Positions 23,696 through 56,453 of a stretch of DNA of 64,000 nt are shown here, one piece after another. The notes beneath the pieces are model-generated. The model saw only the letters and a list, made by a program, of their open reading frames with translations, ran no database searches and was not told where the DNA came from. This stretch comes from Isoetes taiwanensis (taxonomy: Eukaryota > Streptophyta > Lycopodiopsida > Isoetales > Isoetaceae). How positions within the stretch are numbered: position 1 is the stretch's first letter; every line of letters begins with the position of its first letter. The stretch lies in the NCBI GenBank assembly GCA_021234155.1, contig JAJEKV010000063.1, positions 838,947 to 902,946 on the forward strand, read 5' to 3'. A program made the position numbers and the translations under genes.

Positions 23696-23747
23696 GACAC
23701 TTCAATTCTCTGGTTTAACTGGAGTTGCTTGTGTCCTTCAGTCTAAA

Positions 23748-24615: not shown

Positions 24616-24772
24616 TTTTACATATACTACTCCGTTGTTAAGATTAATTTTAGGGCTTTAGTAAAAAATTAGGGTAGGGTCAGACCTCCGCTGTAATGGT
24701 GGGGTCTGTCCTTCCCATTATTGCAGTATTTCCACTTGGAGGTCTAAACTATCCTACTGTTGGAGGTAGGAT

Positions 24773-29600: not shown

Positions 29601-29986
29601 GGTAGGCAGATGGTATAACGTACAGCGAGAGTATCGGACCTGCAGGGCATGTGGCTCAGATGAGGTAGAGGCGTAATAATGGTATGTCCAGCTTACCAGA
29701 CGCTGAGAGATAGATTCAATGTTCAACCATCTAGCTTGCAACAATTTTTCGATATGCCGGGCACCATAGTTGGCAGCTTCCTATTGGACTTGATGGAGCT
29801 ACGGGAAGTAGCAATCAAATATGTTATCGAATCTAGTGGAGATGAGATGGTAGAGAGCGATGGCGAGGTACTCGATGACGAGTTCTTGCCGGATGATGAT
29901 ATATTTTACTAGTGATTTCTGTATTCGGTCTTATGGACCTGATGGTCTGAAAAGACAAAATAATACAATTCACTTCACTTCACTCT
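26656..29986 (+). mobile_element. LINE A: endonuclease plus reverse transcriptase, frameshifted
   Basis: The frame opens just after a TAG near 26655 and reads RLLAWNIN (endonuclease start), FFTETWE, VVLVGDFNGR, CTCKGKSIVDYL and SDHVPLIAHI, the AP-endonuclease motifs. The RT follows with NRVVPIHKAGD, GQAGFRPNKCTIDHL, FVDFSKAFDMVPR, then a short deletion/frameshift near 28575, GCPLSPTLFGIF and the catalytic LLYADDIVLL (about 28704-28733), and the thumb region through VLHGCEVWGP. A terminal CRACG...CPAYQ zinc-knuckle-like motif is split by a shift at 29675. The copy lacks ORF1 and is 5' truncated. It ends with a ttcac repeat after a small hairpin, not poly(A), which differs from plant L1. Clade not assigned. 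Confidence 0.9.
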
Positions 29987-30091: not shown

Positions 30092-33000
30092 TCATATTGA
30101 CCAGATTGTCCAGGCCCTAGCTATATGAAAGGCCACCTTCTTCATGGTGCACCATTCTAGGGGGAGGATACCCAACAACATTTCCTTGATACCTAGTGGG
30201 TATTCAAAGCTATCCAGACTCCATGCCCATACTACTTGCAGCTTCTCACACTCCACCAGACAATGTTCTATGGATTCCTGTTCGGCCTCACACATGGGGC
30301 ATACTGATCTGACGTTGTTGTCCCATTTTGCGACTAGTTGATTGACCCTTGGAACCCTGTGTATCACTTGCCAGAGGAAAACATTTATCCGTGGGGGTAG
30401 ATATTTCTGCCACGCATCTCTCCATATGTTTTTAAGGTTTTCCTCCGTGACAACTATATCCCATTTTGTAGGTATTGGAAGTAAACCCTTAGTCCTCAGG
30501 CTTCTGTAACTTGATTTCACAAACTTGTTTGGCAAAATCGCAGGGTGCAAAACCCATGGATTTTGATCTCCTGTAGTTATAGTGTTTGGGAGTACTGTGG
30601 CCACACATTCCCATATTATTTTATCTGTGTCCTTTAAGGCAAAGCGTACCTGAAATTCTGCCCAACTGACTAATTGTTCTCCCTTGTACTATTGAGAGCA
30701 AGAATCTATTCCACAAATTTTCCACCTCTTTACGATCCTTGCATCAGCCACCATACCTAAGGGGCCCTGTTTATTGTGCAGTACCACTGGTACCCACCAT
30801 GGAGGGGAAGTCTCTGCTTCGAATTTGTTGATGTCAAGCGTAAATAGCTTTTTTATGATTTGCCAAGCCGAAATTAATCCCTTCAGGAATGGAGAAGCTT
30901 CTCTACATGGCTTAAGATAAAAAAGAGTGACCATGGGAGTGAGACTTTGACGGAGGGCTTACTATGCCTACATAACGCTAATAGAGCCTGATTGATGAGG
31001 TGCATACCTAGAGACTTCACCTCTTTCTGTATGATCATCCATATGAATTTGGCTATTAATACTTTGCTCTGCAATGATATGTCGACCATTCCAATTCCTC
31101 CTTCTGCCTTATCTCTCTTGCACTTCCACCAAGCGATTTTGACCACTGCCCCTTCTTCATTCTCTCCCCATACAAAGTTGCGGATTAGTCCTTCTAATTC
31201 CTGTGCCTTTCTCCTTTGGGGCTAGTAAAATTGATGACGTGTAGACATGAGTATTGCTTAACACATGTTTTGCCACAGTAATTCGACCTGCAAGTGATAA
31301 CTTTGCCACCTTCCACCAATTTAAGTGTTTCTGAAGGCCTAGGAGTATTTCATCCCATATTTGTGCATTAGCGATATTAATGCCCACTGGAACTCCTAAT
31401 AGGCTGGAATGCTCACCATTTTCCATGGTAGGATTGTCAAGCATGTGGGATGCGGTTCTTCCAAAGGCCATTGTACTGCGCATTTTTTCCAGTTTATGAG
31501 ACATCCTGAAGCTATTGAGAAGGAGGCTAGTAATTTGTCTGCACTTGACAAGTTATCTTCCTCTGCCTCTATGAATAGAAATGTGTCGTCTGCGTATTGG
31601 TTACATATTTGTTGAGAGTCATCCAGCATTTCTAGTCCCTGAATCATACCGTCTGCAGAGGCTTGCACGAATATTTGTGAGAGTGCTTCTGCTGCGATAT
31701 TGAAGAGGAATGGGGCTAAGGGGCACCCTTGCCTGATGCCCCTCTTTATGTCAAATATTGGAGAGGGTTCACCTTGGAATAGGACTGAGGCTCGAGCAGA
31801 TCGCAGAAGTTTCATGACGCCTTCTGTAAAAATATTTCCACAACAGCTTGAGCATCATTTTATGCAGAAAACTCCATCTGATACTGTCATAAGCTTTGGT
31901 AAAGTCTAGCTTTAAATAGGCCACCTTTTGTCTTGTTTTTCTAGCCCAGTACAAACCTTCGAATGCTGCTGCGATATTGCTCAAGATACTCCTGCCCGGC
32001 AGAAAGCCGGATTGGGCTTGTGAGATGCCTTCTGCTAGAATTGGCTTAATCTTCCCTGCCATAGCCCTAGCTATGATTTTATAGAAAGGAGATAAAAGTG
32101 TGATGGGCCTCCAATCATTGATTGTGCTTGGCTCCTTACTCTTGGGAACCAACATCCTGTGTTCAATCTTGGATTTATATTTTCAGCTTGCATAAAGTCT
32201 GTGTATGTAGAGAAGATATCATCCTTGACCCATTCCCAATTGCGTTGATAGAATTCTATGGGAATTCCATCCATACCCGGACATTTATTTTTAGCTAGTA
32301 AAAAGGTGGCCTTTTGAAGGTCCTCAACAGAGAGGGGAAGATTTAATATGTCTTGCTGGCTAGAGTTCATTATAGGTGAGACTTTTGAAACCACCAGCTC
32401 TTCGAAGGTCTCTTGAAATGGTAAGTTGTGTTCTCCAAAGAAAGCATTAAAATGGTTATATAGATACCTTTTTAGATCTCCTGGGGATTTGAGAATCGAG
32501 CCGTCATTTTGAGTGATGGATGATAGTGTGGAAGATCTCTTCTTCTCTTTGGTTGTCTTGAAGAAGAACTTTGTGCATTTATCAGCTTCTTTTAGCCACA
32601 TCAATCCTGCTTTACATCTGTTTTCAGCTATCTTGACCTCTTCTAGTGTCTTTATCTGTTCTATTATCCTATTCTCCTCCATCCCATCATTGGGGCCCAA
32701 TGCTCTAAGTGAGAGGAGTTGACCATAAAGAAAATCCAGTTCTTCCCTTTCTTTTTGCACTTTAGCTCTACCCCAACTTTTGGCATAATTTTTTATATTT
32801 GAAAGAGCTGTTATCATAGTTTCCATACCAGATCCCATTCTAAAAGCTGATTGCCATATACTTTTGCAGGTCTCCACAAAATCTGGGTCTTTCAAGTATC
32901 TGGTATTTAATTTGAATACTGTTTTAGAAGTTCTAAACTGATACTTCTTAGTAGATATCACTTGTGGATTATGATTGGATATAGCATTCTTTAATTGGTC

Positions 33001-33585
33001 ATTCATATAGCATCTATCATGTCTTGCATATGTCCTCCCTGTTCCCAGCCATCCATTACACCATGTAAATTTACACCACTGAAGTTTCTCAAATCCGTGT
33101 ACAATTTCTGAAGACACCCCTTGTCTATCCTCAGCTGCCTCCACCATATTGAAATCCCCTGCCATAAGCCACGCTACCTGACTTCCAAAGCTTTTCAATC
33201 TATGACTGAGAGTGGCCCATAAGGCACCTCTACCCCTGGGGTTGTTATGGGCATAAATATTCACCACTCCCCATATTCTACCTTCATGTTGCCATAGAAT
33301 TATAGCCCATCTACCAAACCTGTCTACCTGTGAATCACATACTTTTACGTCCTTCTTCCAGGCGATCAGAGTGCCTGCACTAGAGGTATCTTTTACTGCA
33401 GCGATACCCACGTATTCTTTACCTATTGTGTTGAACAATGTGTGTATCTCCCCCTGTTTACACTTATGCTCCTGCAGGCATATTATGTTTGGATTTATCT
33501 TCTTGACTGCATTTGATAATCTGCTTTTCTTGTATTCCGAGGATTTTACTCCCCTGATATTCCAGCTAAGGATCTTATAATTCAT
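30092..33585 (-). pseudogene. LINE B ORF2: endonuclease, RT, zf-RVT (frameshifted)
   Basis: ORF2 starts at ATG 33585 with MNYKILSWNIRGVKSSEYKK, followed by ICLQEHK and LMAGDFNMVEA (endonuclease). The expected terminal SDH of the endonuclease is not obvious around 32940. RT blocks: NKCPGMDGIPIEFYQ, WRPITLLSPFYKIIA, QSGFLPGRSI, LKLDFTKAYDSI, GIRQGCPLAPFLFNI and the catalytic NQYADDTFLF (about 31590). The thumb LSLAGRITVAKHVL and WWKCKRDKAEGGIGM follow, then zf-RVT near 30300 (NVFLWQVIHR; CPMC; EHCL). Frameshifts lie near 32150, 31800, 31440 and 31170. Intact function is impossible for this copy. Confidence 0.85.
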
Positions 33586-35628
33586 GGGGCAATGTTTGGA
33601 GACCCTTTCTTCCTTTTCATATTACCCGTCCCATCTGTATCGATTACTTCTGCCTTTTTATTTTTTTCCCCTGTTACACTAGGCGGGTCCTCGTCCACCC
33701 CGTTCTCCTCTTCCATTGGAAGGTCTGCCCACATATTTTTGTGTGATGGGAGGGCACTCTCTATAGCAGCCAACTCACCACATACTACCATTTCTCCTCG
33801 ATTTCCTTTCACCTTATCTGGCATTGCCTCCTCTGAAATCATTACTTCTTTAATGTATTGAGAGAAAGGATTGTTTACCTCAGTGACAAAATGGATGCTG
33901 AGAGACATCTGAGGAGGGGACTTTGGGCGAGGCCCTCCACTCTTTCGAGCGATATTTCTGGTTCTCCCTTTTTGCCTGGCGCCTCCCACTTCCCAAGTTT
34001 GGCCTTCTGTTTTTGACAAGCCCTCTACAGTTGTAGAGATGATGGGCTCCAAAATAGGTCTCATGGTTGGAGATGCCACGTTGCTAGTGTTAGGTGTTTC
34101 TACTCCCCGACTTGGAGCACCTGGGGTGGTTGTTGCAGGAGTAATGGGGTGGCTCTTTGGGATCCCAGCACTTGTGGGGGGATGTTTGGGATTATCGCTC
34201 TGTGCTTGATGTTGAGGGCTTATCTCTTCCTTTGAACTTGCCTGAGGGTTCTCTTCCAGCCCTTCAATTTTTAGATCTGGGAACATTCTGTATATTTCCC
34301 ACTTGTTGGTCAATTTCAAAGGAAATTTGAAAGAGCAATTGCCACTCTTAACTATCACTCCTTTGGGTATGCTCGCCTTTGCTGGAATGGCTACACAAAT
34401 CCTTGGCCCTCTGGCTATGGAGTGTGAGATGTAAGCACCTATTGTGTTAGCAATGACCTTTAAAAACTCAGGTATCAGCATGTCTGGAGGTAGGTGTTCA
34501 ATCTCCAGCCAGCATGGGATTTTGATTGCTGACATTTGATGGGGGGAGAATCCAGGAGAATAGTATTGATATAAGATATATTCCCCCATAAAGGTGTCCG
34601 CTGCGCGAGCAACCATCTTATCTACCGCGTCTTCAATTTGGAATAAGATGAGGAAGAAGTTGCCACCTAGTGCCTTTAAAGATTCGTGCTGAGGCAAACC
34701 TAACCTTTTCAAGTGAGTTGACAACCAAAATTCTAGTTTTCGGAAGTCCAGGAATCCTCCTGTAAAGAATCCAATAACTGCTCGTGATACCAAGTTCTCC
34801 ACCACTTTTACATGCGTACCATGATCTATCTCTGCTTTTGGAAAGTTATCCTCCACATCTACTTCCATGTTCCCAACACTTTCCATTCCATTTTTTTCAG
34901 GATGGCCTTTATTTAGTTTGCCCAGATCTTGGGCAAAACCTGCTTCTACTATTTTAAGTGCTGCATCTACTCTCAAACTCCTGGTTGTCTCTGCTGGCAC
35001 ATTATTCTTTATCCACTCTGAAAACCTAGGCTTGTTAACCCTTGCTATAGCGTCGTTGTTTTTCCAAGCCTCCCTTGCATTGCTCCTAGCAGCGCCACTC
35101 GCTGAGTCAAGATTTGCAGTATTGTTATGCTTTTATGATGCTCTCTGTACTCCATTTCTCTTCCATTATAACGCCTCCCAATCCTATGGATTTGTGCTTC
35201 ATCCCTGCTAGTTTTTCATTTTCTTCCAACTCTTTCTCGTTTGCTTCTGTTTCTGCTTCTTCCATATGTGAAGCTTCCATGGATGCTTCTTCCATATGTG
35301 AAACTTCCATTGGTGACACTGATCTGCAAGGCTGTGTGAATTTTTTCTGCCCTCCTGCACTATCTCTTACCCCTGGCCCTAACATTGCAGTTTTCAATTT
35401 TCGGATAGCACCGATGGCACTCACACTTGCCTTAGAGGCCAGATCTTCCTCTGCTGATACCTTACCTACTCCATTGCCCTTTGGGGAATGATTATTACTA
35501 TGTGAAGCAGGGGCGGCTGCAAATGGGCCTGGATTCTTATCTGATAAGCTAAGGAAATGGTTTACCTCATGCTGGGCAAAAGCCCCAATTTTTGAGACCG
35601 ATTTGTTGGAGGCCCCATCGGCTGGCAT
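33582..35628 (-). CDS. LINE B ORF1, nucleic-acid-binding gag-like protein
   Basis: The ATG at 35628 (minus strand, MPADGASNKS) follows the GC-rich leader. The N-terminal 167 codons contain short repeats of SHMEEASME. A one-base shift near 35120 leads into ANLDSASGAARSNAR and the 472-codon frame ending at 33582. The middle of that frame (LSTHLKRLGLPQHESLKALG; MPPDMLIPEFLKV-type region) resembles the DUF4283 domain of plant L1 ORF1; a proline/threonine-rich linker and a basic C-terminus follow. Its role would be to bind LINE RNA. The TGA stop overlaps the ORF2 start as ATGA. Confidence 0.75.
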
Positions 35629-37688: not shown

Positions 37689-40152
37689 TCTCAGACTACT
37701 TTGTTTATCCAATTCAAAGTTGAGATAACTCAAAAGCATAGTGAACAAAAGTATAACACATACTGAACTCAAAAAGCATAACTCGTATTGAACATGATAA
37801 CAGGTGAAAATGTTATAACAAAAACTTTTTACAAAATGCTCAGCAGAAAGGCGAAGCTACATCACTGAGTCTCAAATACAGTCTCTGGATCAATACCATG
37901 TTGAGCAGCTATTCTTGCAATATGCTCCTTTCCAATAGCAATGGTCTGTGACAGGTCCATTTCTGTATATCCGGTTGTTATGCAGGATGTCAACATCCAT
38001 TGCCCGCTTTGCGTTAACAACACGCCCGACATATCTTGGCTATTAAACAATTCGTCCTGCAATTGCTCAGAATATTCATTAGAGGGTACCAGCTTCTGCC
38101 TTTTGGGTGAAGGGTGGGGGGAGGTTCTCCCACTTTCTGGAGGCGGCTTGAAGTTCCCACATACTCAAAATTAGGAAGGGCTTGTCCGGTTGCTTGGATA
38201 GCGATGGCATTATGGTGTCGAAGTTCTTGTTCGGGGCTTCAAGCTTCTTGAAAGTTGGATCAAGTTTTGCCTGCCTTCTCGATCACCGCTCTATCGGTTC
38301 GGGTCTCCTTGATCCTTTCTTGAAGCTTTTCGATCCGGGCCTTCTAGTATCCGATCCATGTTCTTTGAGATCCATTCCCCATGTTATATTAATATCAGGC
38401 TTGTCGGAACCTTGTTCTTCACGTTGCTCATCTTGCTCTTCACCTTCCTCTTCCATGTCAGGCCTTGCCATTTTCTCTAGAATCTCGAAGAAAGATCTAA
38501 GGAAACGGCATACCTTGTCGTCAAACTCAAAAGCAACACTCCGTTTTCCTTGCATCAACGCTACCCTTGAGGCAGTTCCTCCTGAGAAGAAATCCAAAAC
38601 GCAACCTTCTAATGGTACCAGCTCCTTCACTATATAATAGACATAAGAGGTTTTTGCCTGGCTCTTGAGGACGAAGTCGCCTTCCATAAATTGCCCATGA
38701 GAATTTGGGTTTACATAAAAGAACTCCAAATACTTTCTTTTTGTTTTTGCATCTACATCTTCGTCGCCAGTTATCGGATATTTTGGAAGAGGAGTGCTTT
38801 GTGGTGCCTTAGTGACTTGAGTCAGTCGCAGCTCCAAGTTGGGTTTAACGGGCAGCACCCGAACGTCACTCCTGTTTATTGTCACATGGCTGACATAATA
38901 CTGGAATTCTTTTATATTTTTTTTGCTCTCCCATCCTTTCTCTTCATAAGCCCCTAGGGAAACATGGGAGCTACCTTGTATCTGGCTAAGACTGTACAAA
39001 TAGTTTGGCAAATGTACCGATCTGAGGAACATGACTATATGGTACACTTTTGCATGTGTCATGCCTGCAACTCTGCTAAAAAAATCTGTGTATTTTTTCA
39101 CATCCCACAGGGTGGAAAAACTACGCATGTCTACAAAAATCAAACTGGCATTTTCTGACACCGATGCAGACACAAGGATGCCACTTTTTGTTACGTGTTG
39201 CACGATGTTTTGCTTCTCTTTCATTTTCCGGGCCTCATCTGGCCTCATTATAGCAACAATAGCTTCCAAAAAAACTGCAGGCAGATTACCTTGAACTGCC
39301 TCTTTATTATAGTTTGCTTTGACGTATTCGAAATCTGTGTCCGCAATATCCAGGAGACGTTGCTCAGATAGCTCTGGAAAAGATGAAGCCAACTCATCAA
39401 AATTATTGTATAGCTTCTCTGAGATAGAATTGGCATATGTTAACACTTCACGACGCATGAGTGAAAGTGTTCTGATGTCTAGAGCCATCTGACTGCAATT
39501 AAAACGTCCTGTATACCCCTGCTGCACTTTCAAGAAAACCTTGCCCTGTAAGATTTCGTCCATCAACTGGCTTACCTCAGCATTGTTCATTCCTCGTAGG
39601 TTTCTCAGGAATGTCTTGTTGAATAGGAACTGCTTCTCATCCTTCAGTTCCTTAACCTTCAGAGTTGTGGTAGCCACCTCGACAAAATCCTGCATGTATC
39701 GAAGTCTTTGGTTAGGATCATGACAGCGATTTTCCCGAGCAAAAAACGAATAACATACCTTCGGTGGATGTCACTGCAGTTCTGTTGGCCCTTGTGGAGG
39801 ACGGCCGAATGCCTTATCTTCAGTTTCTTAGTTGTTGGAGCTTTTCAATCAGTGGTTCTTTGTATACTGTTTCTGCGATGACGTCGTTTCACTGTATGAA
39901 AATCTGAATGTATTCTTTGTTGGAGAGGTTACCATTTAATACCACGACTTCTTCTTTTTACATATGCTTTTGCAAATTCCAACCTTTGCTCGACATTGCC
40001 CACGTATTATAAAAACCGTGGCAAAAAAATCTTTGTGATTACCGTAAATGATATAAAATTTCTTGTTTGCCAATTCTTAAAGTAGCGACCAAGTGACTAA
40101 TTTCCTGCATGTGGCCGAGATACACTAGTTAGTCCAAGATATTGTTCACGAA

Positions 40153-43325: not shown

Positions 43326-44889
43326 TGTGACGTTCGGCCAAAGATATCGCTCTCCGGGGCGTACATTGTATGCCGCCACGTCCGCGGCGTACGCGCCACC
43401 CGGTTGGCGTGTGCGCAACGGATAGCCAGGTAAGTAGCCCTAGGGGGCAACTTGCTAGGAGTATTCATATATTATTAATGTGCACATGTGCACATTAATG
43501 AGGGCACACCTTTCCATGTTGGCATATTTTGCCACCTAGCCATTAAAGGCAAGTGGGCCCTTTCCAATTATCCCACATGCCAAATTGGATGGTGGAAACC
43601 TAACCTAAACCCCATGTCTATTTAGGGTAGGAAAACCCTAGCTTGCTAGTTTTTAGTCCTTAAGCGTTTTAGAGCTCGGTTTTTGGCTGCCCGAGGCCAA
43701 AGCGCCTCCCAGGCGCCCCAAGCGAATTAAGCCATCGGTTTCCCGAATCCGATCAGCTCAGCAGGATGGTTGAACTCAGGTCAGGAGGAGCCACTCAAGG
43801 ATCAGGTATTTGGTCAATTTAATAGCTTAAACCGTCTTCTAATCATAGAATCGTGGGGTTTAGACTATTAAATTGCCCATAGCAGACTATCTAGATCTTA
43901 GATCTGGGACACTAACTAAAGAACCTAACTCTATGATTAGATCTAGTTCTTTAGTTCTTACTTGATATTGGGTTGATGTATCTCTGTGAACTCCTTGTAT
44001 TGGGAAGGGGGGGGGTAGAGGCCCTAAGGCTTGTAGTTGATGCTCCTAGAGTAGCCTCTCTAGCACACCAGATTCGGCACATGTACAAGAGCCACACCCA
44101 GTTTGTGGGTGGAGGGGCCAGACCGGCTAAGAAGGAGGTTCATGTTCGACTCCCGAGCGATCCCACGTGTGTAAAAAGCCTACCGGGATCATTGTGACTA
44201 GGTCTAATGGCTTACCACCGAGTGCGGGTAAGGCATGGGCTCATTGCACCCGTGAAGTGGTGTACACTTTCCAGTGGGTTCCCATCGAATACGGGCGGGG
44301 CCCTCTAGTCACCTTGAGTTAGTTAGCATGTAGATCTCTGGAGGGAGTGATCCCTACCCTTCCCCGGGCTGGGAGGATGAGACCGGGAATAGCCCCTTCG
44401 GGCTATGCATCCGGGCTAAGGCCAGTCCCAACACTTTTCACCCTACTACGCAAAGTGTGCACAGGGAGGGGCTGGAGTGGACAACCCTATGCCATGTTCT
44501 TATGCCAGCCAATTCCATTGCCATGAATTACATGCATAACGAACTCCTGGAGACCCAAAGCCGTCATCATCCTTTGAGTCCGAGCCTTGGGTAGGATCCC
44601 CTATGTGATGTCTTGATCTTTGTCTATCGCGGATATGAGGAGGACCATCCTTCGAGATGGTCCACGGGATGTTGATGTATGTGCTCTTGACATGTATGTT
44701 TACGCTTCCGACTAGGTAGGCCACGAGGGAGACGGGGTAGAATGACACCTTCACTCTTCCCAATCGAGACTGGAATTCACGGTGCGGTGATATGTGGAGG
44801 GCCCCGTATCGACATGGAGCCGGGTGTGGGGAAGAACTCCTGTTTTGTATACGGTGAGTGCACCGTATCACGAGTGAGGGGACGTCCAC
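43326..44889 (+). repeat. 5' LTR
   Basis: About 1.56 kb, matched by 54912-56453. AT-rich parts (for example around 43455-43600) are almost identical to the 3' LTR while G/C-rich parts differ by many small indels. Contains a 26-bp perfect palindrome at 43474-43499. Confidence 0.9.
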
Positions 44890-44891
44890 GG

Positions 44892-44902
44892 TGGTATCGA
44901 GC
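44892..44902 (+). other. Primer binding site (initiator tRNA-Met)
   Basis: tggtatcgagc lies 2-3 bases after the 5' LTR and differs by one missing base from tggtatcagagc, the usual complement to the 3' end of plant initiator tRNA-Met. Confidence 0.8.
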
Positions 44903-45092
44903 AATGTTCTTGGAGACCAAGAGCAAAGCACTGACCATGTTCCCAGTAGTACTAACTTGATAGGATCCTCAAGCCTCGAAAAGTGGGAAAAATTTTTTCT
45001 CACCTTTGTAGTTATGCTAAGCTAGTAACAATTAAGTGAATTGGAATTTAACAAGATTAAAAAGAATGAGCCAAAATTTTTCAAAGTGAGGT

Positions 45093-45345
45093 GGTCTCCG
45101 CATTTCGCTTTGGTCATAAAACTAACTTTTTTTTTTTTGAGGCGTAAGTCGTGAGACATCGAGTCAAGAACACCAAAACATGATGAATTTGAGATAAATA
45201 ATGTGGTAAGGCTAATTCTAAGGTAGGAATTAGTTAGAATAGCATGTTTTAATTACCTAAAAACCCTAGAAATGTATGAGATCTCACATTTCACCGGTTA
45301 TAAAACTAAACATTAGTATTGGAGCGAGGCGCAAGTCGTGAGACC
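45093..45345 (+). promoter_or_regulatory. Hairpin pair 1 (two about 65-bp units)
   Basis: Unit 1 (45093-45157) runs from ggtctccgcatttcgc to gaggcgtaagtcgtgagac; unit 2 (45281-45345) from atctcacatttcaccgg to gaggcgcaagtcgtgagacc. In each, the left arm is complementary to the right arm. The units are 188 bp apart and precede the TATA box of the histone-like ORF. Confidence 0.65.
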
Positions 45346-45444
45346 AATAGGTAGAAAAAGTCTAAAATAAGTATAAGTTTAGATAAGTTGGTGCCTTAGC
45401 ATGTTAAGCGGACAACTTGAGTTTTGACCTAAAATTCCCCAAGC

Positions 45445-45452
45445 TATAAATA
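45445..45452 (+). promoter_or_regulatory. TATA box of histone-like ORF
   Basis: tataaata 106 bp upstream of the ATG at 45551. Position and context resemble a Pol II core promoter and the same arrangement recurs before the second ORF. Confidence 0.5.
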
Positions 45453-45550
45453 GATGTAGAACCCCTCATTTTTTTTCCAAGCCCTAGAAATCCGCTCTTC
45501 CCAACTTAGGCGATCTTTGGCGCTTTTATCCGATTGACGATCCGTAAAAC

Positions 45551-46807
45551 ATGGCCCGAACCAAACAGACCAAGCAAGGGAAGCGTGCCCAGCGAAACCA
45601 CCAGCCAATTTGAGGCAGATCATTCGGAGATGCTTCGTGAGAGGCTCGCAGAGGGGGTCGTCGCCTTCGGACGGTAAGAGGAAGACACCGATTTGATCGA
45701 TGTCTTCAACCAAATGTGGAGGAGGACGAGGCCACATCACCAACTCCATGGACGTAAGAGACGAGGGAGGTGTGTACGAGGAAATAGAGCGGAGATCCAA
45801 AGAGCAGAACAAGGTACTATCATTCAAACGAGACCCACGGAAATCCTCGAAAGGTGATGAGCAGTGATGTGTCCGGAGCCACGGAGGTAGCGTGCATCTT
45901 AGAAGGTTCATCGAAGTACGAAATGCGTAAGAGAAGGGAAGACAAAAAGAGGAAAAGGAAGGAGGAGGAACAAAAGGTAGCAGAAGAAAAGAAGAAAGCG
46001 AAAAGGGAAGTTCGTGGGTCTGGCGAAGGAGAACAAAGGACCTTCGCCAAGGAAGAGGCCGAACCCCAACATTATTATCAAGGAGCGCAACCCGACGAAC
46101 CCCCAAACCCTTCCGGACGACTCTTCTGATGAAGACTTCAACCCTAACGGCTGGGAGCTCTTCCAAGCACCCAGGCGACGAAAGGTGAAGTACCCGAGCA
46201 AATGCACCCGAGCAACCCCACCAAGACCAAGTCACGAGAAGCCCCCCAATACCTCCATGGGATAGAAAGAAGCAACCACGACCTGCCCGGAAGCCTACGC
46301 CACCGGCGATGGTAAAGATTTATGAGGAAGATGAGAGAGCACGAGGCCTACATGAAGAAATGGGAGGCCTATAACAAATATTATGAAGAAAATGTTAAGT
46401 TCATCGAGGGGAGGGCGACCAACGGGCAAAAACCTAAGGCCGCCACCACCACCGCCCAAGGTTCCCAAGCCACCCGAAGAAGAAAGCGGATAGGAAGGAG
46501 GTGGAGAGAAGAGCGTTAAGGGAGATTAGACACTTCAGTAAGCAGCTTGGTCTCCTAATCCCCCGTGCCCCTTAAGCTCGGTTGGTGCGTGAAGTTATCT
46601 CGGAGCCTATAGAGCAGACTTTAGAGTCACGGACGGCCGGCTGGCGGCAATGCAAGAGGCGGTGAGGCAAAGATAGTGCAACATTTTGAAGATTCAACAG
46701 CCTGCACTATCCACGCCAAGCGGGTAACCTTAATGCGACAAGACATGAGTCTTAGCGACCGCGTATTAAGGAGAACGCATATAGAAACTTTTGTTGTAAA
46801 TAATTAA
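45551..46807 (+). CDS. Histone H3 / CENH3-like protein carried by the retrotransposon
   Basis: The ATG opens MARTKQTKQGKRAQR; the first seven residues equal the histone H3 tail including K4, while the ARKS of K9 is absent. The last 300 bases encode a histone fold: ALREIRHFSKQLGLLIPRAP (46513-46572), RLVREV, LAAMQEAV, then HFEDSTACTIHAKRVTLM and RQDMSLSDRV, ending at TAA 46807. Blocks correspond to H3 helices alphaN to alpha3; REIRHF-KQ-LLIP and HAKRVTLMR are closer to plant CENH3 than to canonical H3. Between tail and fold lie about 300 codons of charged linker (KRKRKEEEQKVAEEKKKAKR). A TGA after codon 20, a TAA at 46573 and several shifts break the frame. A role in nucleosomes or chromatin targeting of the element is inference. 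Confidence 0.8.
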
Positions 46808-46930
46808 AAATTTTGTAATATAGAGCAATTTTGTGTACCTTGATGACATAAACTTGAGTAATTAGAGCAAATTAATAAGTTTTAGCTTTTATTTCAGTGA
46901 AATAGGACATTTGGGAGCCGAGAGACATGA

Positions 46931-47190
46931 TGTCTCACAGCTCGCGCCTCGTCGCAAAACAAAAAGTTAGGATTGAGCGGCGCAAGGCGTGAGACCTATA
47001 TCTTGACCAAAACAGCTCCAAATTGACCAAATAAGGGGTCGATTCTGCCTAATTTGATGAGCCCATCACCCTTACACCATTAGTTTACCCAAGTTGGACA
47101 TCTTTGATTAAAATGGGACTGATGTCTCACAGCTCGCGCCTCGTCGCAAAACAAAAAGTTAGGATTGAAGCGGGCGCAATTTGTGAGACC
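46931..47190 (+). promoter_or_regulatory. Hairpin pair 2 (two about 65-bp units)
   Basis: Unit 3 (46931-46996) and unit 4 (47123-47190) both start gtctcacagctcgcgcctcg, share cgcaaaacaaaaagttagga, and end ggcgca...gtgagacc. They are 192 bp apart, nearly the spacing of pair 1, and precede the second TATA box. Confidence 0.7.
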
Positions 47191-47378
47191 TCTTACCAAT
47201 TCTTCACCGGGACTTGTCAAAGTCACCTTCAACCCTCTTGCATAGCATCTTTTAGGTAACCTAGCCTTGTTCAAGCATCTCCTATAGTCCTCAAACTCCT
47301 ATCGACCTCGGATAAGTTAGAATTACCCAATCCTAGGAAATTTCAAGTCATCCAAAATTAGGGTTTCCCCTTTTTTTC

Positions 47379-47386
47379 TATAAATA
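47379..47386 (+). promoter_or_regulatory. TATA box of the second extra ORF
   Basis: tataaata 116 bp upstream of the ATG at 47502, mirroring the first cassette. Confidence 0.5.
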
Positions 47387-47501
47387 GACCCTCACTTCTC
47401 ACATAGCACCCTACAAATCTGCTCCACCGCCCTTCTAGCGATTTCCTAACTCCACGAGGCGCTCTTGCAACCATTTTGTTACCCTCTTACGCAATTAATC
47501 A

Positions 47502-49075
47502 ATGGCAACCGATTTCCCACGATGGTACAGCGCCCGGCGCTCATCTTCTTGGTAGGCCGTCGACCAAATCTTCGGATCTTGGGGAAGGAGGTAGGCGTCG
47601 AGCAACCTTGCCACGCGACCCGGCTTATAGTAGAGTCTGGCGGAGTTTCAAGCTAGGGTAGAGCCAGTAGCTAGTGCAACTCCCTCCTTGTGTAGGATAT
47701 TTTGTTCCTAGGCAGGTCCCTGCTTGGCGGCATTAGGCGATGTCGGAACATGCGCCAAATACCTCTCACAAACAAAGCGCCTGCACACTTACGAGCCAAT
47801 GGTCCTAGCGTCCAACAGACCAAGTACTTCTCTTTCAACACTTTGCCAAAGCAATCTTTCTCCTGCCAATCGTCAGAGAACATCGTTGGGGAAACCTCTA
47901 TTCCCCATGGGCGTGGATCCATTGGCCGTAGCGGCGGAGAACAAGCGGCTCCTCACTGTTGTCTGAGCGAGGGCGAGGGAAGGGAAGGAAGAAGACTTCG
48001 GATGAAACGGGAATCAGGAGGAGGAAGATTTATGTTGAGCTCGACCCGGCCGAGGAGCGGCGTCAAGCGAGGCGGGGTGGCAGACTTCGAAGAGGCCGTG
48101 AACTCGTAGAGTCGCGCCACCCCTCCGGGTTAGGCATCACAAGCCTAGCCCCCATTATAATCGAAGGTGAGGAGTTTCTACTCTAGCGACATTCAAAACC
48201 TCCCTTTGGTGCGGGGAAAGGAGTGACCTGAAGAGTTTTTGCACCAACTCCGAAGAAGCGGACTTGGGCGACTTCATCGTCCGAGGAAGTCCGACTTTCC
48301 CCTCCCAGTAAGGAAGCCGACACTTACACGGAGAGTTTACCTCCGGCATCCAAGCCTCACGGCAACATCGGAGGAGATCATGGAAGCGGACAAGGCTGAG
48401 AACAAGCTACCGACGGAGGAAGAGTTCCTTGCTCTCCCGAGGGGCGGATGGGGATCCGCTATCGCGACCTCAAACATCCTAATCGGAAAGCTCATCCGCA
48501 GCACCTCCCGGATGGATAGGGCCGGCCCAGGTCGACCTCGGGAGGGCTTCAAAGAAGTCCAGAGACTACAGGAGCCTCACCACGGTAGGAGGTTGATGAT
48601 TTGGAAGGCATAATCGAGCTGGATCACCGAGTAGGACCCATCTATCATAGCAACGGCAGTCATTACGCTATTACCCTCGCCATTGCGATGGATGGAAGAA
48701 TAGCGGTTATCCACCGCAGTTCACCCCCGAGGAAGGAAGGAGTATGGCTTTGATTGCACTCTCGAGGATTGGCCGCATGCGGCTACCCCTTAACACCAAG
48801 TATGCAATCCTGGTGAAAAGAGCGGTAGCACTTTCGGCGTCTTCGACCCATACCTTCACAGGTGGCCGGGCAAGGCTTGTCAAATGGCGCCTTTTATACC
48901 TCCCACCGCAGAATAGAAGATTTAGCAAGAGCATTACAGGGTGGATCTCCAGCCAATGTCCGCCAGGAACTTGGGCCATTCAGTGGGAACAGCCAAGTGA
49001 AAAAGTTCTTGGAGGATAATCCATCTTCACCGGCATCAACAAAAGTGATTAGCGGTAGTTGCAAGTTCTTGTATT
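47502..49075 (+). CDS. Second extra retrotransposon ORF, unknown
   Basis: Starts at the ATG following the second TATA box (MATDFPRWYSARRSSSW). The frame is broken by many small indels. Recoverable stretches include KADKAENKLPTEEEFLALP, a run reading YHSNGSHYAITLAIAMDGRI near 48650-48700, and DLARALQGGSPANVRQELGP near 48915-48980, ending at TAG 49075. I recognise no domain. It could be an accessory protein, a second chromatin-related protein, or the N-terminal part of gag. A short AT-rich spacer (49076-49200) separates it from gag-pol. Confidence 0.35.
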
Positions 49076-49199
49076 AGTGTAATATAAAATATAAATATAA
49101 CATTCTCTTGCACTATAAATGTTTTGTTGATACATTTTGTGTCCCCTCAACCATGCCAACAAACATAAATAATGCAAGAAAGCAAGGAAAAAAACTAAC

Positions 49200-52100
49200 C
49201 ATGTAGATATGAACCACTTGTGTATGCAGCTAGAGGCTGGCGCGGGAGAGCGACAACTACTTGAACTTACAGAGAACGAGCCCGCCCGTGCCACGCCTAC
49301 GCAAGGAACCTGCTTCAAGAGTTTGGACAAATGACTCGGAAAGAAGAAATATCGCAAATGAGGACCGGACCTCGAATAGGATAAAGGCCTTGCTAGCCGC
49401 TGGCGGGGAGGCGGTTCCGGTGGAGTAACAGCTCAAGCTACCGCAAGCATCAGCTTCGGAGAACAAGTAGAGACAAGAAGAGGAGCAAGAGAGGAAGGTC
49501 CCCAGCTCGGACTCCTCCGACAAGCTTCAGATCGGACTCGATTCGAGGAAGAAGAAGAAGCGAGAACCAAGTCCGAAAGCGGGAAAGGCGGAGGAACCAC
49601 CCGGAGGGACTCCACAAAGGACACAAGAACCTCACGACTACGGGAAGAAAGTAGACTGCATTGGGAAATGTTTGAAGGCCAGGAAGCTCGAGCAATTCTC
49701 AAAGTAGAACAATTCGAGCATGGAAGCAGAGGCTTGGCAATGAGATGGCGAATCTGGGCAATGCCTATGGTATGAAAGGATAAGGATAAAAAAGCGGGGG
49801 TGGCAAATAACACGAAAGGACAAGACGCATTTGGTGGAAGGGCTATGCCAAGGCTCATGGCTTAGCGGGGATGCTTGCAGGTTCAAGAAGTTTGCTAAAG
49901 CCTTCAAAGCGCCATTACGTTCCAAGAGCACAAGTCGGTATGATCTGTGATTCTCTGGCCCGAGGTTGCAGCAAGGCAACAAGTCATGACAGAAATACCG
50001 CAGAGGAATTTATGAGGCTAAAATTTTGTATGTGCCAAAGTTAGGTGAGAAGCATGCGGTGGAAAGCTACATTGAAGGTCGAATGAGGAGATCCCAAGCT
50101 TGTAGGGCAATAAACCCTAGAGCGATTGTCCGGGCGGAGTCAAGGCAATAAAGCTTGCAGGGCAAGGGACACCCGGAATGGCGGGGCGGAGAACAACGGT
50201 ATTGAAGGATAAAAGGAAGGCAAAGGCTGGCCGAGTTTTTGCGAAACGGCCCGACCCGGGACCCGACTAGAGCCCATATAGTGGCAATCAAGGAAGCTTG
50301 GCGGGGGAGAAAGAAGCGGTGTCCTTCAAAGGGCAAGCGGGAAGGTCAAACTACTCCAAAGCGATGCGTCCTTTACTGCCGAGGCCACATGCCCAAGGGA
50401 AAGAGCGAGGAGTGCATAAGCGGCTTTGCGCCCCGGTGTTTCGGCCGGGCCATAGGGCGGCAAAGGCTGCTTGCATATGTCATGAAGTCTTGGCTGCTTG
50501 CGAGTTGGGAAGATGGGACACTTTCTACGTGATGCGGCTTGGCCGAGGAGGCCCTGACTACATTGGTGAGTGTCGCCATCTTTGCGCAATAGATCTGAGA
50601 ACTAGCCCGGGCGATTATAAAGTAATTTCCCACGTTGGGAAAGGCCAAGGCCAAGTCATTTATAGTCCTAATAGATTCGGGAAGTAGCCATAACTTTGCA
50701 TCTCCCGGAATGGTTCAAATGTTGAAGTTGAAACCATTAAAGTCAAAGCCAAGGCCGTTGTCTTAGCAAGTGGAGCGGTAAAAGGCGGGGCCAGGTAAAA
50801 GAATCAACTTTGACATCGACTTGCTTGGGGATTAAGATCCGGATAGGGGCGAGAAGTAATGGGCATTGGCAAGTGCGACTTGATAATAGGTATGGAGTAC
50901 CTTGGACCAGCGAGGGGCCATTATTGATTGTGGAAGCGGAAGGTGACCTTCCCAACACCCGCGACAAGATCATTGAGATAACGAGGTAAAGAAGTTGTCC
51001 CCATCATGCGGTGTATGTCTTCTAAATGGCTGTTCAAGTGCATCAAGAGTGAGCGGGTAGCATACATCTTCAAGCTTGAGATTAGTGAGCGGAATTGGAA
51101 GGAAGCAAAGAAGACAAGATGCTTTCGACAAGTTGCCGAGGCAAATAGCTAAGTTGATCCGGAGTTCCACGATCTCTTTCGAGATGAGATCAAGCGGCTC
51201 CCTCCTTATAGGGGAGTCGAAAAGTGCGAGATAGCACTTTCGAACCGGGGCAAAAACGACAAAACAAGGCCCCATATAGAATGACAACGCGGGAGTTGTC
51301 GGAGCTAAAGAAGCGATTCGCGGGAGCTGCTTTCGACCTAGGTTTCATTAGACCTAGTGTCTCGCCGTTTGGGCGCCCATTCTTTTGTCAAGAAGAAGGA
51401 TGGATCTTTGAGGATGTGCATAGACTATAGGCAGTTGAATAAGAACACCATTAAGAACAAGTATGCGCTTCCAAGATCGACGCGACTTGATGGATCGACT
51501 TCAAGGAGCAAAGATCTTCTCAAAAAATCGACTTAAGGTCGGGTTACCATCAGTCTGAGGATAAAGGAGGAGGATATCCACAAGACCGCCGGGGCGGTAT
51601 ATGGGCATTATGAGTTCACGGTGATGCCTTTTCGGCTTATCAAATGCCCCCATAGCGTTCATGAGGCTCATGAGCGATATCTTGAGGGAGTTCACAGACA
51701 CCTTTGTGATTGTTTTTCTTTGATGACATTTTGGTGTATAGCGGGATCCTTGAAGAGCACGTGCAACACTTGAGAAAGGGTGCTAGAGAAGTTGAGGCAC
51801 GGGTTAATACGCCAAGTTGTCGAAGTGCCGCCGCCTTGAGAGAAGGTGGAATACCTTGGTCATGTGATCTCGGCGAGAAGGCATCTCGACCGGACCCGCC
51901 AAGATCGGCGATGATTACGGTGGCGTGGCCCGAAGAATGCCTGCAGGTCGAAGTTTTCGGTCTAGCGGGGTACTTTCTGAGGAAGTTAAGTGAAGAACTT
52001 TGCTAAGATAGCAGCCGGATTAACAATAGCAGACTGTGAGGCGGAGAAGGTGAAAGATTGGGTAGAGCATTGGCACAAAGCCCAAAGGTTTGAATTGTTG

Positions 52101-54046
52101 AAGGAAGCTTTAACAACAGACCCGATCTTAACCTTGCGGACCGGGAGAAAGATAAGCTTAACAACAGATCGCGAGTAAAGATAGCTACAGTGCGGTGCTT
52201 ATGCAAGAAGAAGTGTGGTAGCGTATGATTCGAAAAGATGAGCGCAGCCAAGAACTGGCGGCGCGATGTCGGGGAATTGCTTGCGGTTGTCGGGCATTAA
52301 GAATATGGAGGCACTATCTCTTGGGAAGGAAGTTCCAATTGGATCACCAGACCATGAGCCTCAATATGTATTCCGCATAACCACACCTCAATCTGAGGCG
52401 GCGGAGATGGATGGAGTTCCTCGAAGAATATGACTTTGATATAGTCTACAAGCCGGGGAAGCTCAATGTGGTAGCGGATCGCTTTCAAGGCATCCACGAC
52501 AACTAGAGTGCATTGCAGCGCAATTTCGACGCTCTCCGCTGACTTTGGTAAGAGGATTGAAGAGTCCTTGCCAGCGGATGTGGATTCCGGGGAAGTATGG
52601 GCAAGCCTCTCTAAGGAGGCTAGAGCAGGATAAAGGCGGGGAGGCCTTCAAGCATTATAAGAAGGAAGGCAACCTGTTATACCATAAGAACAAGTTGTCG
52701 TGCAGAATCATCAGGTGTAAGGAAGTTGATCCTCCATGACACGCTGCTTGACCCAATAGGCCCATGCGGGATTCATGAAAACATATTTTTCAAAGTCTTG
52801 GCTAACTATTATTGGCGGGAATGAAGAAGCAAATAGCTTCGCTACATCAAGGAATGCCGGCTATGCGGCCAGGCGAAGGCGAGCAACTTAATTCGAGGGG
52901 CATTAAAACCGATAGCGATTACCAAGCGCTAAGTGGGAGGTAATCGGCATGGATTTCATCCACCGGGACTCCCAAAACGGCCGAGAGGCAAGGATGCCTT
53001 GATGGTAGTGGTCGACAAGTTGTCAAAGATGGCACATTTTGTGCCTTGCGGGACCACCGACTGACTATGGATCGGACAAAGCTCTTCACCAAAGAGATCT
53101 TGAGGGCTTCATGGCATGCCAAGGGAATTATCTCCGACGAGAGATCAAAGTTCATGAGTGCCTTTGGCAAGACCTCTTCTGCGACAATTCGAGACCAAGC
53201 TATCCATGAGCCGCGGCGTATCATCCTCGAGACGGATGGCGGGCGGAGGCGGACCAGCGGGATCTTTAAAGACATGCTCTGAAACTATATATGCGGAATA
53301 AGCAAAGTATGTGGGAAGAATTCATTCACTTGGTGGGTTGCATACAATAGCACCAAGCAGGAATGCGTCCCAAATGTAAGCCATTTATGATCAATTATGG
53401 CTATCGATTGCCTAACTCGGACACTTGGCACAACCCGTGTCAAAAGTAGAAGTTTCCTTGGCCGGATGTTGGCGATATCAGCAGCTTCGTGGAAGAGGTT
53501 AGAGGGTATCTGCTAGCAGCAAAAGTCGACAAAAGAGCATCGCCGATAAGCATCGAGCGGTAAGAGAGTTCAAAGTTGGAATGATGTTTGGCTCAAGATC
53601 AAGAGTAAAAGCGGTGGCTTCGAGTTAGGAATTGCAAGAAGCTTGCTCCAAGGTGGGCTGGACCCTTCGAATAATCAAGAGAGTAGGTAATCAATCCTAC
53701 AAGTTGGATTTGCCAAAGACACCTAAAGATTCATAAGGTCTTCCACGTGAGTTTGTTGAAGAAGCATACTCCAAATCGAGGCCCAGTCTTGGACACTCAA
53801 CGTTGTTGGAAATGGCGGAGGAACATTTGGAAATAGTCCTGAATTGATTCTTGATAAAGCTTTCAAGAAAAACGAGGAGATCGAAATTCCTCCGGTATTT
53901 GGTCAAGTGGAAACACTTACCAGTGGAAGGCATACGTGGGTACTTAAGAAAGATTTAGTAAAGCGGTACCCACAATTTATGGAGCAATGGGATGACAAGG
54001 TCATCTCAGAAGAAATCGGCTCGAGCATGTCGATTTGTGTAGGTTA
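49200..54046 (+). pseudogene. Ty3/gypsy gag-pol polyprotein, heavily frameshifted
   Basis: Gag-like charged sequence (49200-50340) leads to a damaged zinc knuckle (RCVLYCRGHMPKGK, about 50363-50405). The protease C-terminus shows GKCDLIIGMEYLG near 50865-50900. RT follows with [15 protein letters not shown] near 51340, SNAPIAFMRLMSDIL (about 51640-51685) and FVIVF before the catalytic aspartates at about 51720. RNase H ends with [20 protein letters not shown] near 52415-52475. Integrase has ECRLCGQAKA (zinc motif end, about 52852) and [20 protein letters not shown] (about 52993-53053). The tail contains HTWVLKKDLVKRYPQFMEQW, a chromodomain-like end. The order PR-RT-RH-IN defines Ty3/gypsy. 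Dozens of small indels preclude function as written. Confidence 0.85.
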
Positions 54047-54895
54047 ATTCTTGTATAGATTAATCTACGCATGCAACCTATGCTTGGTATGGGGTGCATG
54101 CGTTGTTGTTCGGCGATGAGACCACTCACGGTGATCTCTAGGGCGTGGTGTAAATGTCAATGTAGGCATGACCGCGTTTCCAAGGCCGAGTGGAAGGTAG
54201 ATTAGAAAGTCTACCGTCCCGTCGGAAGTGGCTACCTCGAAAAGAAAATTAAGGAATGCATTGATAGGGAAAGCACCTTTAGCCCCATATATGCTTTGAT
54301 AGGAGGAATCCATCCTTCCGCCCCCACGCGAGAAGGATATCCTCCAAAGCCCAGGCAACTAGAGGTGTAGGCATGAGTGGCATATAGGCATATAGGTGCT
54401 TTGTCTCCACGGCCATTATGGAAGATTCATCCTCTTCCTACGCCGGGAGATTAGCCATGCATTCATGTAGATAGGTGGGGTGGTCACCATATAACCAAAA
54501 AAAAAAAATTTTAATTAATAATTAGCGGTACTAACGTAGTGTCGACTGCTGAGGCGATGAGGCTCGGGAGGGCAAGGAGGTGGAAGATCACGAAGACTTG
54601 CAACACAAGTTTGTTGGAATGTGTTGCAAGGAATGAAGAGTACCTCGGGGCGAATTATTATAGATATGAAATGTTGAAATTTTGTCTAACTTAACATAGT
54701 GAATAACTTGTTAATGATGTTATGAATTGATAAGTATTCCATAATATAATAGCGTTAATGTTCTAAAAGTAATTACCTTAGAGTAATGCGTGATAAATGT
54801 ATAAAGATTATATTGTAGGTATCACGTTGATTGCAGGGTGCGAGGTTAGGAAGATCCCAAGGTGGGGAGACCCACGATCTTGCCGGGATGCATCA
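54047..54895. other. Retrotransposon 3' untranslated region
   Basis: Between pol and the 3' LTR. Mostly non-coding; a 97-codon antisense frame at 54065-54358 is open but unrecognised. Confidence 0.5.
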
Positions 54896-54911
54896 TTTCA
54901 AGGTGGGAGAA
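54896..54911 (+). other. Polypurine tract
   Basis: ttcaaggtgggagaa directly before the 3' LTR, as usual in plant Ty3/gypsy elements, where it primes plus-strand synthesis. Confidence 0.75.
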
Positions 54912-56453
54912 TGTGACGTTCGGCCGCATATCGCGCTCCAGGGCGTACATTGTACTGTATCGTCACGCGTCCCGCCACCGCCGTTGGCGTATGCAACGGA
55001 TAGCCGAGGTAAGTAGCCCTAGGGGCAACTTGCTAGGAGTATTCATATATTATTAATGTGCACATGTGCACATTAATGAGGGCACACCTTTCCATGTTGG
55101 CATATTTTGCCACCCTAGCCATTAAAGGCAAGTGGGGCCCTTTCCAATTATCCCACATGCCAAATTGGATAATTGGAAACCCTAGCCTAAACCCCATGTC
55201 TATTTAGGGTAGGAAACCCTAGCTTGCTAGTTTTTTAGTCCTTAGCATTTTAGAGCTGGAGTTTGGCTGCCCCAGAGCCAAAGCCCTCTGACGTTTCGCC
55301 CAAGCGAATTGCGCCATCAGTTTCGAACAGGTCATTTCAGGGATGGTTGAACTTCGGTCGGGGAGGAGCCACTCGGGATCGGGTATTTGGTCAATTTAGC
55401 TTAAACCGGGTCTTCTGTCATAGAATCAGGTAGGTTTAGACTATTAAATTGCCCATAAACTATCTAGATCTTAGATCTTGGACACTAACTAAAGAACCTA
55501 ACTCTATGATTAGATCTAGTTCTTTTTAGTTCTTCCGTGATATTGGGTTGATGTATCTCTGTGAACTCCTTGTATTGGGAAGGGGGTAGAGGCCCCAAGG
55601 CTTGTAGTTGATGCTCCTAGAGTAGCCTCTCTAGCACCTTTGTGGATTAGGCGTGTACAAGAGCCACACCCGTTGTGGGTGGAGGGGCCGGGGCCGGCTA
55701 AGAAGGAGGTTCATGTTCTCCTCAAGCGATCCCCGGTGTGTAAAGCCTACAGGGATCATTGTGACTAGGTCTAATGGCTTACCACCCTTGAGTCTGCGGG
55801 TAAGGCATGGGCTCGACAATCTGAAGTGGTGTACACTTTTCGGTGGGTTCGGTCGAATCTGAGGCGGTGGCCCTCTAGTCACCTTGAGTTAGCATGTAGA
55901 TCTCACGGGGAGTGATCCCTACACGCCCCCCTCGGGCGGGAGGATGAGACCGAGGAATAGCCCCTTGGCTATAAATCCCGTGGCTCTGATCGAGTCCCAA
56001 ACACTTTTCAGCCTACTCGCAAAGTGTGCAATGGGAGGGGCGGATGGAGTGGACAACCCTATGCCATGTTCTTATGCGGCCAATTCCATTGCCATGAATT
56101 ACATGCGCAGCGAACTCACGGAGACCAAAGCCAGTCATCCTTGAGTCCGAGCCTTGGGTAGGATCCCTATGTGATGTCTTTGATCTTTGTCTATGCAGAT
56201 AGTGAGGAGGACCATCCTTGAGATGGTCACAGGATGTTGATGTATGTGCTACTGACATGTATGTTTGCGCCCGCAGCTAGGTAGGCCCCGAGGGAGACGG
56301 GTAGAATGACACCTTCACTCTTCCCGAGACTGAGATTCACGGGTGCAAAGTGATATGTGGAGGGCCCCGTATCGGCATGGAGCTGGTGTGGGGAAGAACT
56401 CACTGTTTGTATCGGTGTGAGTGCAACCGTATACGCAGTAGGGACGCGTCACA
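54912..56453 (+). repeat. 3' LTR
   Basis: Copy of the 5' LTR, about 1.54 kb. It starts tgtgacgttcgg and ends gggacgcgtcaca. Contains the same 26-bp palindrome at 55052-55077. Confidence 0.9.

Follow-up and report, generated by a model that had tools for sequence, protein, structure and literature searches.

A histone H3-fold reading frame in a Ty3/gypsy chromovirus family of Isoetes taiwanensis

The element and its H3-type reading frame

The window analysed here is the whole stretch of 64,000 nucleotides from the Isoetes taiwanensis assembly, and positions 43326-56443 of it are occupied by a decayed Ty3/gypsy chromovirus, recognised by its LTR pair, a primer site, pol domains in order and a chromodomain. 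The features of this element are the following:

43326-44880, + strand: 5' LTR, 85.7% identical to 54912-56443 and found in 20 of 20 other copies
44892-44902, + strand: primer-binding-site-like TGGTATCGAGC, directly after the 5' LTR
45094-45156, + strand: first palindromic module, preceding the H3 ORF (fold z -2.0)
45278-45346, + strand: second palindromic module, preceding the H3 ORF (fold z -1.8)
45445-45452, + strand: TATA box TATAAATA, a candidate internal promoter for the H3 ORF
45551-46804, + strand: broken H3-type ORF with a MARTKQT start, a long charged extension and a C-terminal H3 fold
46501-46804, + strand: histone H3 fold, read over three frames (PF00125 E 1.9e-17, the breaks being written as X)
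46928-46997, + strand: third palindromic module, preceding the second ORF region (fold z -2.45)
47120-47191, + strand: fourth palindromic module, preceding the second ORF region (fold z -4.0)
47379-47386, + strand: TATA box TATAAATA, putative second internal promoter
47503-49000 (end approximate), + strand: second 5' ORF region, decayed, with an ATG at about 47503
50662-50733, + strand: aspartic protease fragment (RVP_2 E 0.17 in the window, E 1.5e-8 in copy L016)
51604-52431, + strand: reverse transcriptase and RNase H fragments (RVT_1 E 0.073, RT_RNaseH E 9.5e-5)
52789-53767, + strand: integrase fragments (H2C2 E 0.012, SH3_Tf2-1 E 1.9e-5)
53863-53955, + strand: chromodomain piece (PF00385 E 0.0017 for the piece alone, under the curated cut-off)
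54900-54911, + strand: purine-rich tract ahead of the 3' LTR, identified from its sequence
54912-56443, + strand: 3' LTR, 85.7% identical to the 5' LTR

Both LTRs begin with TGTGACG; the real end of the 5' LTR may lie about 10 nt further, and the 3' LTR possibly extends to about 56453. The TGGTATCGAGC at 44892 resembles a primer site for the initiator-Met tRNA. The order protease, reverse transcriptase, RNase H, integrase is kept in the window, with several fragments below the Pfam cut-offs. Pol domains rise above these cut-offs in pieces of copies L014, L016, L017, L024 and L026, and the better-kept copies give E values of 1.8e-42 for RVT_1 (L024), 5.1e-34 for RT_RNaseH (L017), 1.4e-22 for SH3_Tf2-1 and 6.2e-10 for the chromodomain (L017).

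The H3-type ORF is located between the primer site and gag-pol. An earlier sequence-only reading had described a MARTKQT start and histone-fold blocks inside a Ty3/gypsy element, and these motifs lie where it placed them, spread over three frames. It had proposed an H3 profile search of the fold region, and this search gave a significant PF00125 match (E 1.9e-17). Taken separately, the two pieces of the fold match the same profile at E 9.2e-5 (46501-46662, just below the curated score) and E 6e-6 (46664-46804), and profile and alignment together show the fold to span alpha-N to alpha-3. The best PDB sequence relatives of the window fold are cnp1 chains (centromeric H3) and H3 chains, with a best E of 4.3e-16. 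A chance resemblance to H3 is ruled out by the profile value together with these PDB matches.

The window ORF is heavily broken, the longest open piece on the + strand being 113 codons. Its product differs from canonical H3, which has about 136 residues, in retaining at best the first tail residues and continuing with some 300 others. Loop 1 is one residue longer than in canonical H3, according to our own count from alignments of P0014, one of the archive proteins described below, and of the window fold read with X at the breaks; in plant CENH3 this loop is longer still. Eighteen proteins were aligned with the fold of family A, as we call the family of the window element, and show 42-52% identity to it. 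The ORF at 45551-46804 is thus an H3-fold chimera and not a canonical H3.

The sequence-only reading had the ORF followed by gag-pol, which holds in so far as gag-like sequence and pol come later, but the region directly after the ORF, from the ATG at about 47503, is without a Pfam match, gag included, in a search of 47503-50003. When an open piece from this region of copy L007 was compared with the further 5' ORF of a type B element (L088 412-1560; types B, C and D are described below), no similarity emerged.

Each of the palindromic modules in the leader regions is about 65 nt long and has arms that pair (RNA fold z -1.8 to -4.0). Thirteen other copies contain three or four modules apiece, with both TATA boxes at the matching places in 13 of 13; in 10 of the 13 the H3 ORF start word was found unchanged. 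From this arrangement we infer that the two 5' ORFs may be served by separate internal transcription units; alternatively, the modules could represent a packaging or dimerisation hairpin. The 49-nt module copies at 46928-46976 and 47120-47168 are identical, though the LTRs of the element differ by 14%, and in some copies the CpG-rich palindrome arm is swapped for TACCG-like strings.

Other repetitive sequences are present elsewhere in the window. Long repeats comprise a 1.56-kb palindrome (85%) and direct repeats that are 97% identical (1580-3139 and 22176-26453). A non-LTR-type retroelement with matches to endonuclease and reverse transcriptase is found at 26715-29676 (+ strand), and another, with a DUF4283 ORF (33582-35000) and an endonuclease ORF, at 32071-35000 (- strand); the DUF4283 ORF is in keeping with a land plant. 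The 470-aa ORF at 38283-39695 (- strand) has no Pfam match at 1e-3 and includes a stretch, DFFSGGTASRVALMQGKRSVAFEFD, which we take to be methyltransferase-like.

Copies of family A and further H3-fold types

A DNA search of the 1.66-Gb assembly with 46480-46810 as the query yielded 1415 first-look candidates, of which 40 were scored, namely the window and 39 others. All 39 cover nearly the whole query at 89-93% identity. For the 20 next-best copies after the window, upstream and downstream pieces were compared; LTR, leader, H3 ORF, following region and pol occur in identical order and orientation in all of them, and the H3-ORF stretch is matched end to end in each. The sequence-only reading had named absence of the ORF from other copies as the finding that would speak against it; the ORF is present in 20 of 20, and the shared layout rules out a one-off nested insertion.

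Fold motifs are found in one frame in 18 of the 40 copies (window included), and the start is readable as MARTKQT in 19 and as MARTKQTA in 11. The longest stop-to-stop frames holding the fold in this set are 422, 404 and 390 codons, and the open fold of copy L007 matches PF00125 at E 1.3e-28. Two copies in the same orientation are spaced 11.6 kb from each other (G000:C1030 15398405-15410328), a distance of approximately one element minus one LTR, and are perhaps tandem elements sharing an LTR.

The LTRs of the window element (43326-44891 against 54912-56453) diverge by 30.6% within 3 nt of CpG and by 6.4% elsewhere, so that the density of differences is almost fivefold higher close to CpG; the ratio of transitions to transversions is 88:88 near CpG and 32:28 elsewhere. 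The differences near CpG could reflect base-calling error at methylated sites and not true mutation. Considering that this pattern is unlike plain CpG decay and possibly includes such error, the number of frame breaks counted in the assembly may be overstated.

Using P0014 as a protein query against the genome, 12,205 first-look candidates were obtained and 105 scored, many of them in open frames of at least 400 codons. Twenty of the 105 were fetched, hand-picked for diversity and for mostly open frames, so the share of open frames among them is not representative. One of these loci, L078, encodes a canonical H3, taken as that of the host. Thirteen contain an uninterrupted ORF of 400-441 codons and define three further H3-fold types, whose start words are MA(N/I)TK (type B), MPRFK (type C) and MARTKG (type D) and whose extensions are alike by eye (IPYPIYHF, IPYPIFHF and IPYPVFHL). 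The fold of locus L069 matches PF00125 at E 2.9e-41. At L077 (C1078:19590780-19592500, - strand) a type B-like H3 fold stands in a frame that extends back into unrelated protein sequence containing a YMDD-like motif, which looks like either a nested insertion or a fusion.

Four loci of types B-D were read downstream. In L088 (type B) and L089 (type D) the H3 ORF is followed by further ORFs without a Pfam match and then by Ty3-type capsid, protease and reverse transcriptase, with Ty3_capsid E values of 3.4e-15 and 2.5e-15, respectively. The type B element continues into integrase and chromodomain (chromodomain E 1.5e-8 in the type B locus L092). L090 (type C) has putative gag-like ORFs downstream, and in L091 (type B) no downstream gag-pol ORF of at least 150 aa was found. 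The further 5' ORFs without a Pfam match include L088 412-1560 (382 aa) and L089 834-1703 (289 aa).

Proteins of the same plan, 337-402 residues long, are encoded by archive contigs (P0014, P0030, P0115, P0146, P0148, plus shorter or partial ones); these were compared as protein sequences. Four of the five start with MARTKQTARK, K9 included, and residues 106-227 of P0014 are predicted to form a long helix. A further archive protein, P0018, has an H3 fold followed by a PF02902 domain, presumably a Ulp1-type peptidase, and is perhaps another mobile-element H3.

The first structure model, that of P0014, gave no PDB match at E <= 0.001 in a fold search. A model of one H3-type protein reached moderate confidence (pLDDT 69, pTM 0.42) from an input alignment rich in H3 proteins and gave 323 PDB matches at E <= 0.001, the 50 listed being nucleosome or histone chains (TM about 0.48). 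A homology search with profile A2 returned 7955 matches and was swamped by ordinary H3, as judged from the best 120 of the 7955. No relatives were found in viral contigs scanned with P0014, A2, A4 and the palindrome word, nor in prokaryote genome contigs scanned with A4.

The proteins of types B-D and of the archive could be host H3 variants that lie near elements by chance, family A alone being element-borne. Such a reading draws on the fact that profile-supported gag-pol lies downstream in two of the four B-D loci, L091 being the locus without a gag-pol ORF of that size. We regard it as very improbable: in types B and D the H3 ORF is followed, at a similar distance, by a second ORF and Ty3-type gag-pol, and a degenerate DNA search for the fold-end coding motif IHAKRVTxM gave 2,716 genomic matches (true H3 genes included; reversed control 0).

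Selection on the H3 ORF and its origin

For family A, we used a 40-copy alignment in the frame of one copy, over-gapped sites being removed. Variants common to at least four of the 40 copies were taken as mostly pre-insertion and singletons as mostly post-insertion. The shared variants number 62, 66 and 116 at codon positions 1, 2 and 3 (p 1.5e-5), and 15, 21 and 49 outside CpG (p 9e-6). Singletons number 40, 52 and 42 (p 0.4), and the shared and singleton distributions differ (p 0.003; outside CpG 0.013). An earlier alignment of 21 copies, treated likewise for over-gapped sites, gave 58, 52 and 95 shared variants (p 0.0004), with p values of 0.07 against singletons and 0.02 outside CpG. In the fold alone the shared variants are 13, 12 and 20 (p 0.28), or 4, 4 and 12 outside CpG (p 0.041), with no significant contrast between shared variants and singletons in this part (p 0.67 and 0.63). 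The codon-position signal of family A comes mainly from the extension and is weak in the fold.

For the further types we determined dN/dS, omitting 7 of the 20 fetched loci, L078 among them, that have no uninterrupted ORF from the three expected starts. Type B displays a median of 0.114 (8 uninterrupted ORFs, 28 pairs), with 0.042 in the fold and 0.122 in the extension, and type D a median of 0.185 (3 ORFs, 3 pairs). The value for type C is 0.068, from one pair whose dS of over 2 places it near saturation. A dN/dS below 1 was what the sequence-only reading had proposed to look for, and types B-D give 0.07-0.19, alongside the third-position excess in the shared variants of family A. These substitution patterns indicate that the H3 ORF of the elements has been under purifying selection.

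This result bears on whether the captured H3 gene is a passenger, amplified with the element and without function for it. Host genes carried along as passengers are known from LTR elements, and the broken state of most copies, with fold motifs in one frame in only 18 of 40, is what a passenger would look like. Against this stand the third-position excess of shared variants, the low dN/dS of the uninterrupted ORFs, the fixed position in 20 of 20 copies and the several divergent H3 types in related elements. The codon-position excess and the dN/dS values largely refute a neutral passenger, and we give this explanation almost no credence.

The relationships among the H3 types were assessed with a first tree of 40 rows, L074 being omitted, and with AU tests on 26 rows that are mostly a subset of it; the CENH3 and CENP-A folds in both sets were entered by hand. 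In the first tree, with bootstrap values that are unsettled, family A (100/100), types B-D (97/93) and the archive proteins (100/100) form supported groups, and types B-D adjoin the canonical H3 of the host (92/78). In the 26-row set, family A joins plant CENH3 at 68/52. The AU tests reject neither the union of family A with types B-D (p 0.153) nor that of family A with the archive set (p 0.311), and marginally reject the three held together (p 0.047). Repeated capture and a single capture with fast change are both compatible with these supports and tests.

The reverse transcriptase of family A is 82% identical to that of type B and 81% to that of type D (about 190 residues), and a second, more decayed family A copy is 70% identical to type B over 240 residues. 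The H3 proteins, comparing one from family A with one from type B, are 43% identical over the last 156 residues and give weak matches before. As the H3 proteins are far less alike than the reverse transcriptases, a single capture is not established.

The sequence-only reading had spoken of a captured H3/CENH3 gene. The first part stands, in that an H3-type gene is fixed in a Ty3/gypsy element (20 of 20) and has been under purifying selection; CENH3 is one possible identity among others, given the 68/52 support and the unrejected alternatives. The motifs IRHF, LLIP and RVTLMR, which are like those of plant CENH3, are present in the window ORF.

Possible roles of the H3-fold protein and comparison with known systems

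That the element contains an H3-type gene is, in our judgement, nearly certain. It also appears reasonably probable that a lineage of Ty3/gypsy chromoviruses took up a host H3 gene and keeps it as a 5' ORF whose product acts on chromatin. A host histone H3 gene would have been acquired as a separate 5' ORF ahead of the second 5' ORF and gag-pol. Its product, of about 400-420 residues, would consist of a short H3-like or altered start, a type-specific extension of about 300 residues replacing the tail, and the full H3 fold. It may be expressed from its own internal promoter, the TATA box with two palindromic modules upstream.

In plants, transposons are silenced by way of marks on the H3 tail, and the integrase chromodomain of chromoviruses serves to read H3 marks. 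The H3-fold product would pair with host H4 and be deposited in chromatin, within host nucleosomes, as a tail-replaced H3 variant, and the chromatin on new copies or at target sites would then escape or rewrite the H3-tail marks. Since the H4-binding fold is kept and the tail that bears silencing marks is replaced, a mark-altering H3 variant in chromatin would be the simplest reading; we put this mechanism forward tentatively, from the layout of the proteins. Types B and C are without the MARTKQTA start, which family A and the archive proteins can have, and therefore no single tail-based mechanism would apply to all types. The maintenance of the ORF by selection suggests that the elements act on the packaging that normally silences them.

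The presence of a chromodomain in the same elements is in agreement with another role, in which the H3-type protein is mainly an integration-targeting factor that forms a variant nucleosome, for example in centromeres or heterochromatin, where the integrase chromodomain would dock on its long extension or tail. The H3 tail start retained in 11 of 40 family A copies (MARTKQTA) and in four archive proteins (MARTKQTARK, with K9) and the weak leaning of the family A fold towards CENH3 (68/52) would also fit such a factor. The H3 start is absent in types B and C, though the type B element has a chromodomain, and we consider targeting as the main role unlikely.

It is more doubtful that the H3-fold protein belongs to the particle or pre-integration complex and serves cDNA compaction or nuclear import outside host chromatin. 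An ORF in the proviral coding region that is kept under selection, and the long helix predicted in the relative P0014 (106-227), are consistent with a particle component; the H3 fold by itself, on the other hand, cannot wrap DNA without H4.

Extending the chromatin reading, the whole chromovirus lineage may produce a diversified set of H3 proteins (more than 1000 coding copies) that reprogramme the nucleosomes on their own or on target DNA. This possibility, which we raise without committing to it, would entail an arms race with the host over H3, and the proteins of the elements could give rise to new H3 variants, some of them CENH3-like. An H3-encoding element would act on the substrate of silencing itself. 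Surveys of H3 and CENH3 variants, moreover, can be swamped by element ORFs.

Plant chromoviruses such as Tekay/Del, Retrosat-2 and RIRE3 have a 5' additional ORF (aORF), for whose proteins a nuclear location and a largely disordered state are predicted. According to the same source, the sunflower Tekay product does not resemble known domains but is structurally like double-stranded-RNA-binding proteins, while for some aORFs a resemblance to certain domains of plant proteins is mentioned (PMC11728184). The elements described here are like them in layout, having an additional ORF of some 400 codons that follows the 5' LTR and precedes gag-pol (45551-46804 in the window, 400-441 codons in the 13 ORFs of types B-D). 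Whereas the sunflower Tekay aORF is described as without a known domain, the present ORF ends in an H3 fold; the word 'histone' is absent from that paper. The often unexplained chromovirus 5' aORFs thereby gain a case with a recognisable domain.

LTR retrotransposons of bdelloid rotifers likewise keep additional ORFs, and no histone ORF is mentioned among them in the portion of the paper available (PMC5408684); the available parts of two further papers mention no histone gene in elements (PMC12440569, PMC9033089). Among the matches listed in searches of open-access PMC full text, none described a core-histone gene in an LTR retrotransposon, subscription papers and preprints being outside this scope.

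With H3 variants, including CENH3, the present proteins share the H3 fold and, in some cases, a MARTKQTA start, but they differ in having an extension of about 300 residues in place of the tail and in being encoded by mobile elements. Histones are encoded by viruses as well: the bracovirus H4 has an added N-terminal tail, and Marseilleviridae also encode histones. A core-histone-type protein made from a viral or mobile genome is common to these systems and to the one described here, a likeness by description; bracoviruses and Marseilleviridae are DNA viruses with H4 or histone doublets, whereas in the present case the histone is H3 and its carrier is an LTR retrotransposon.
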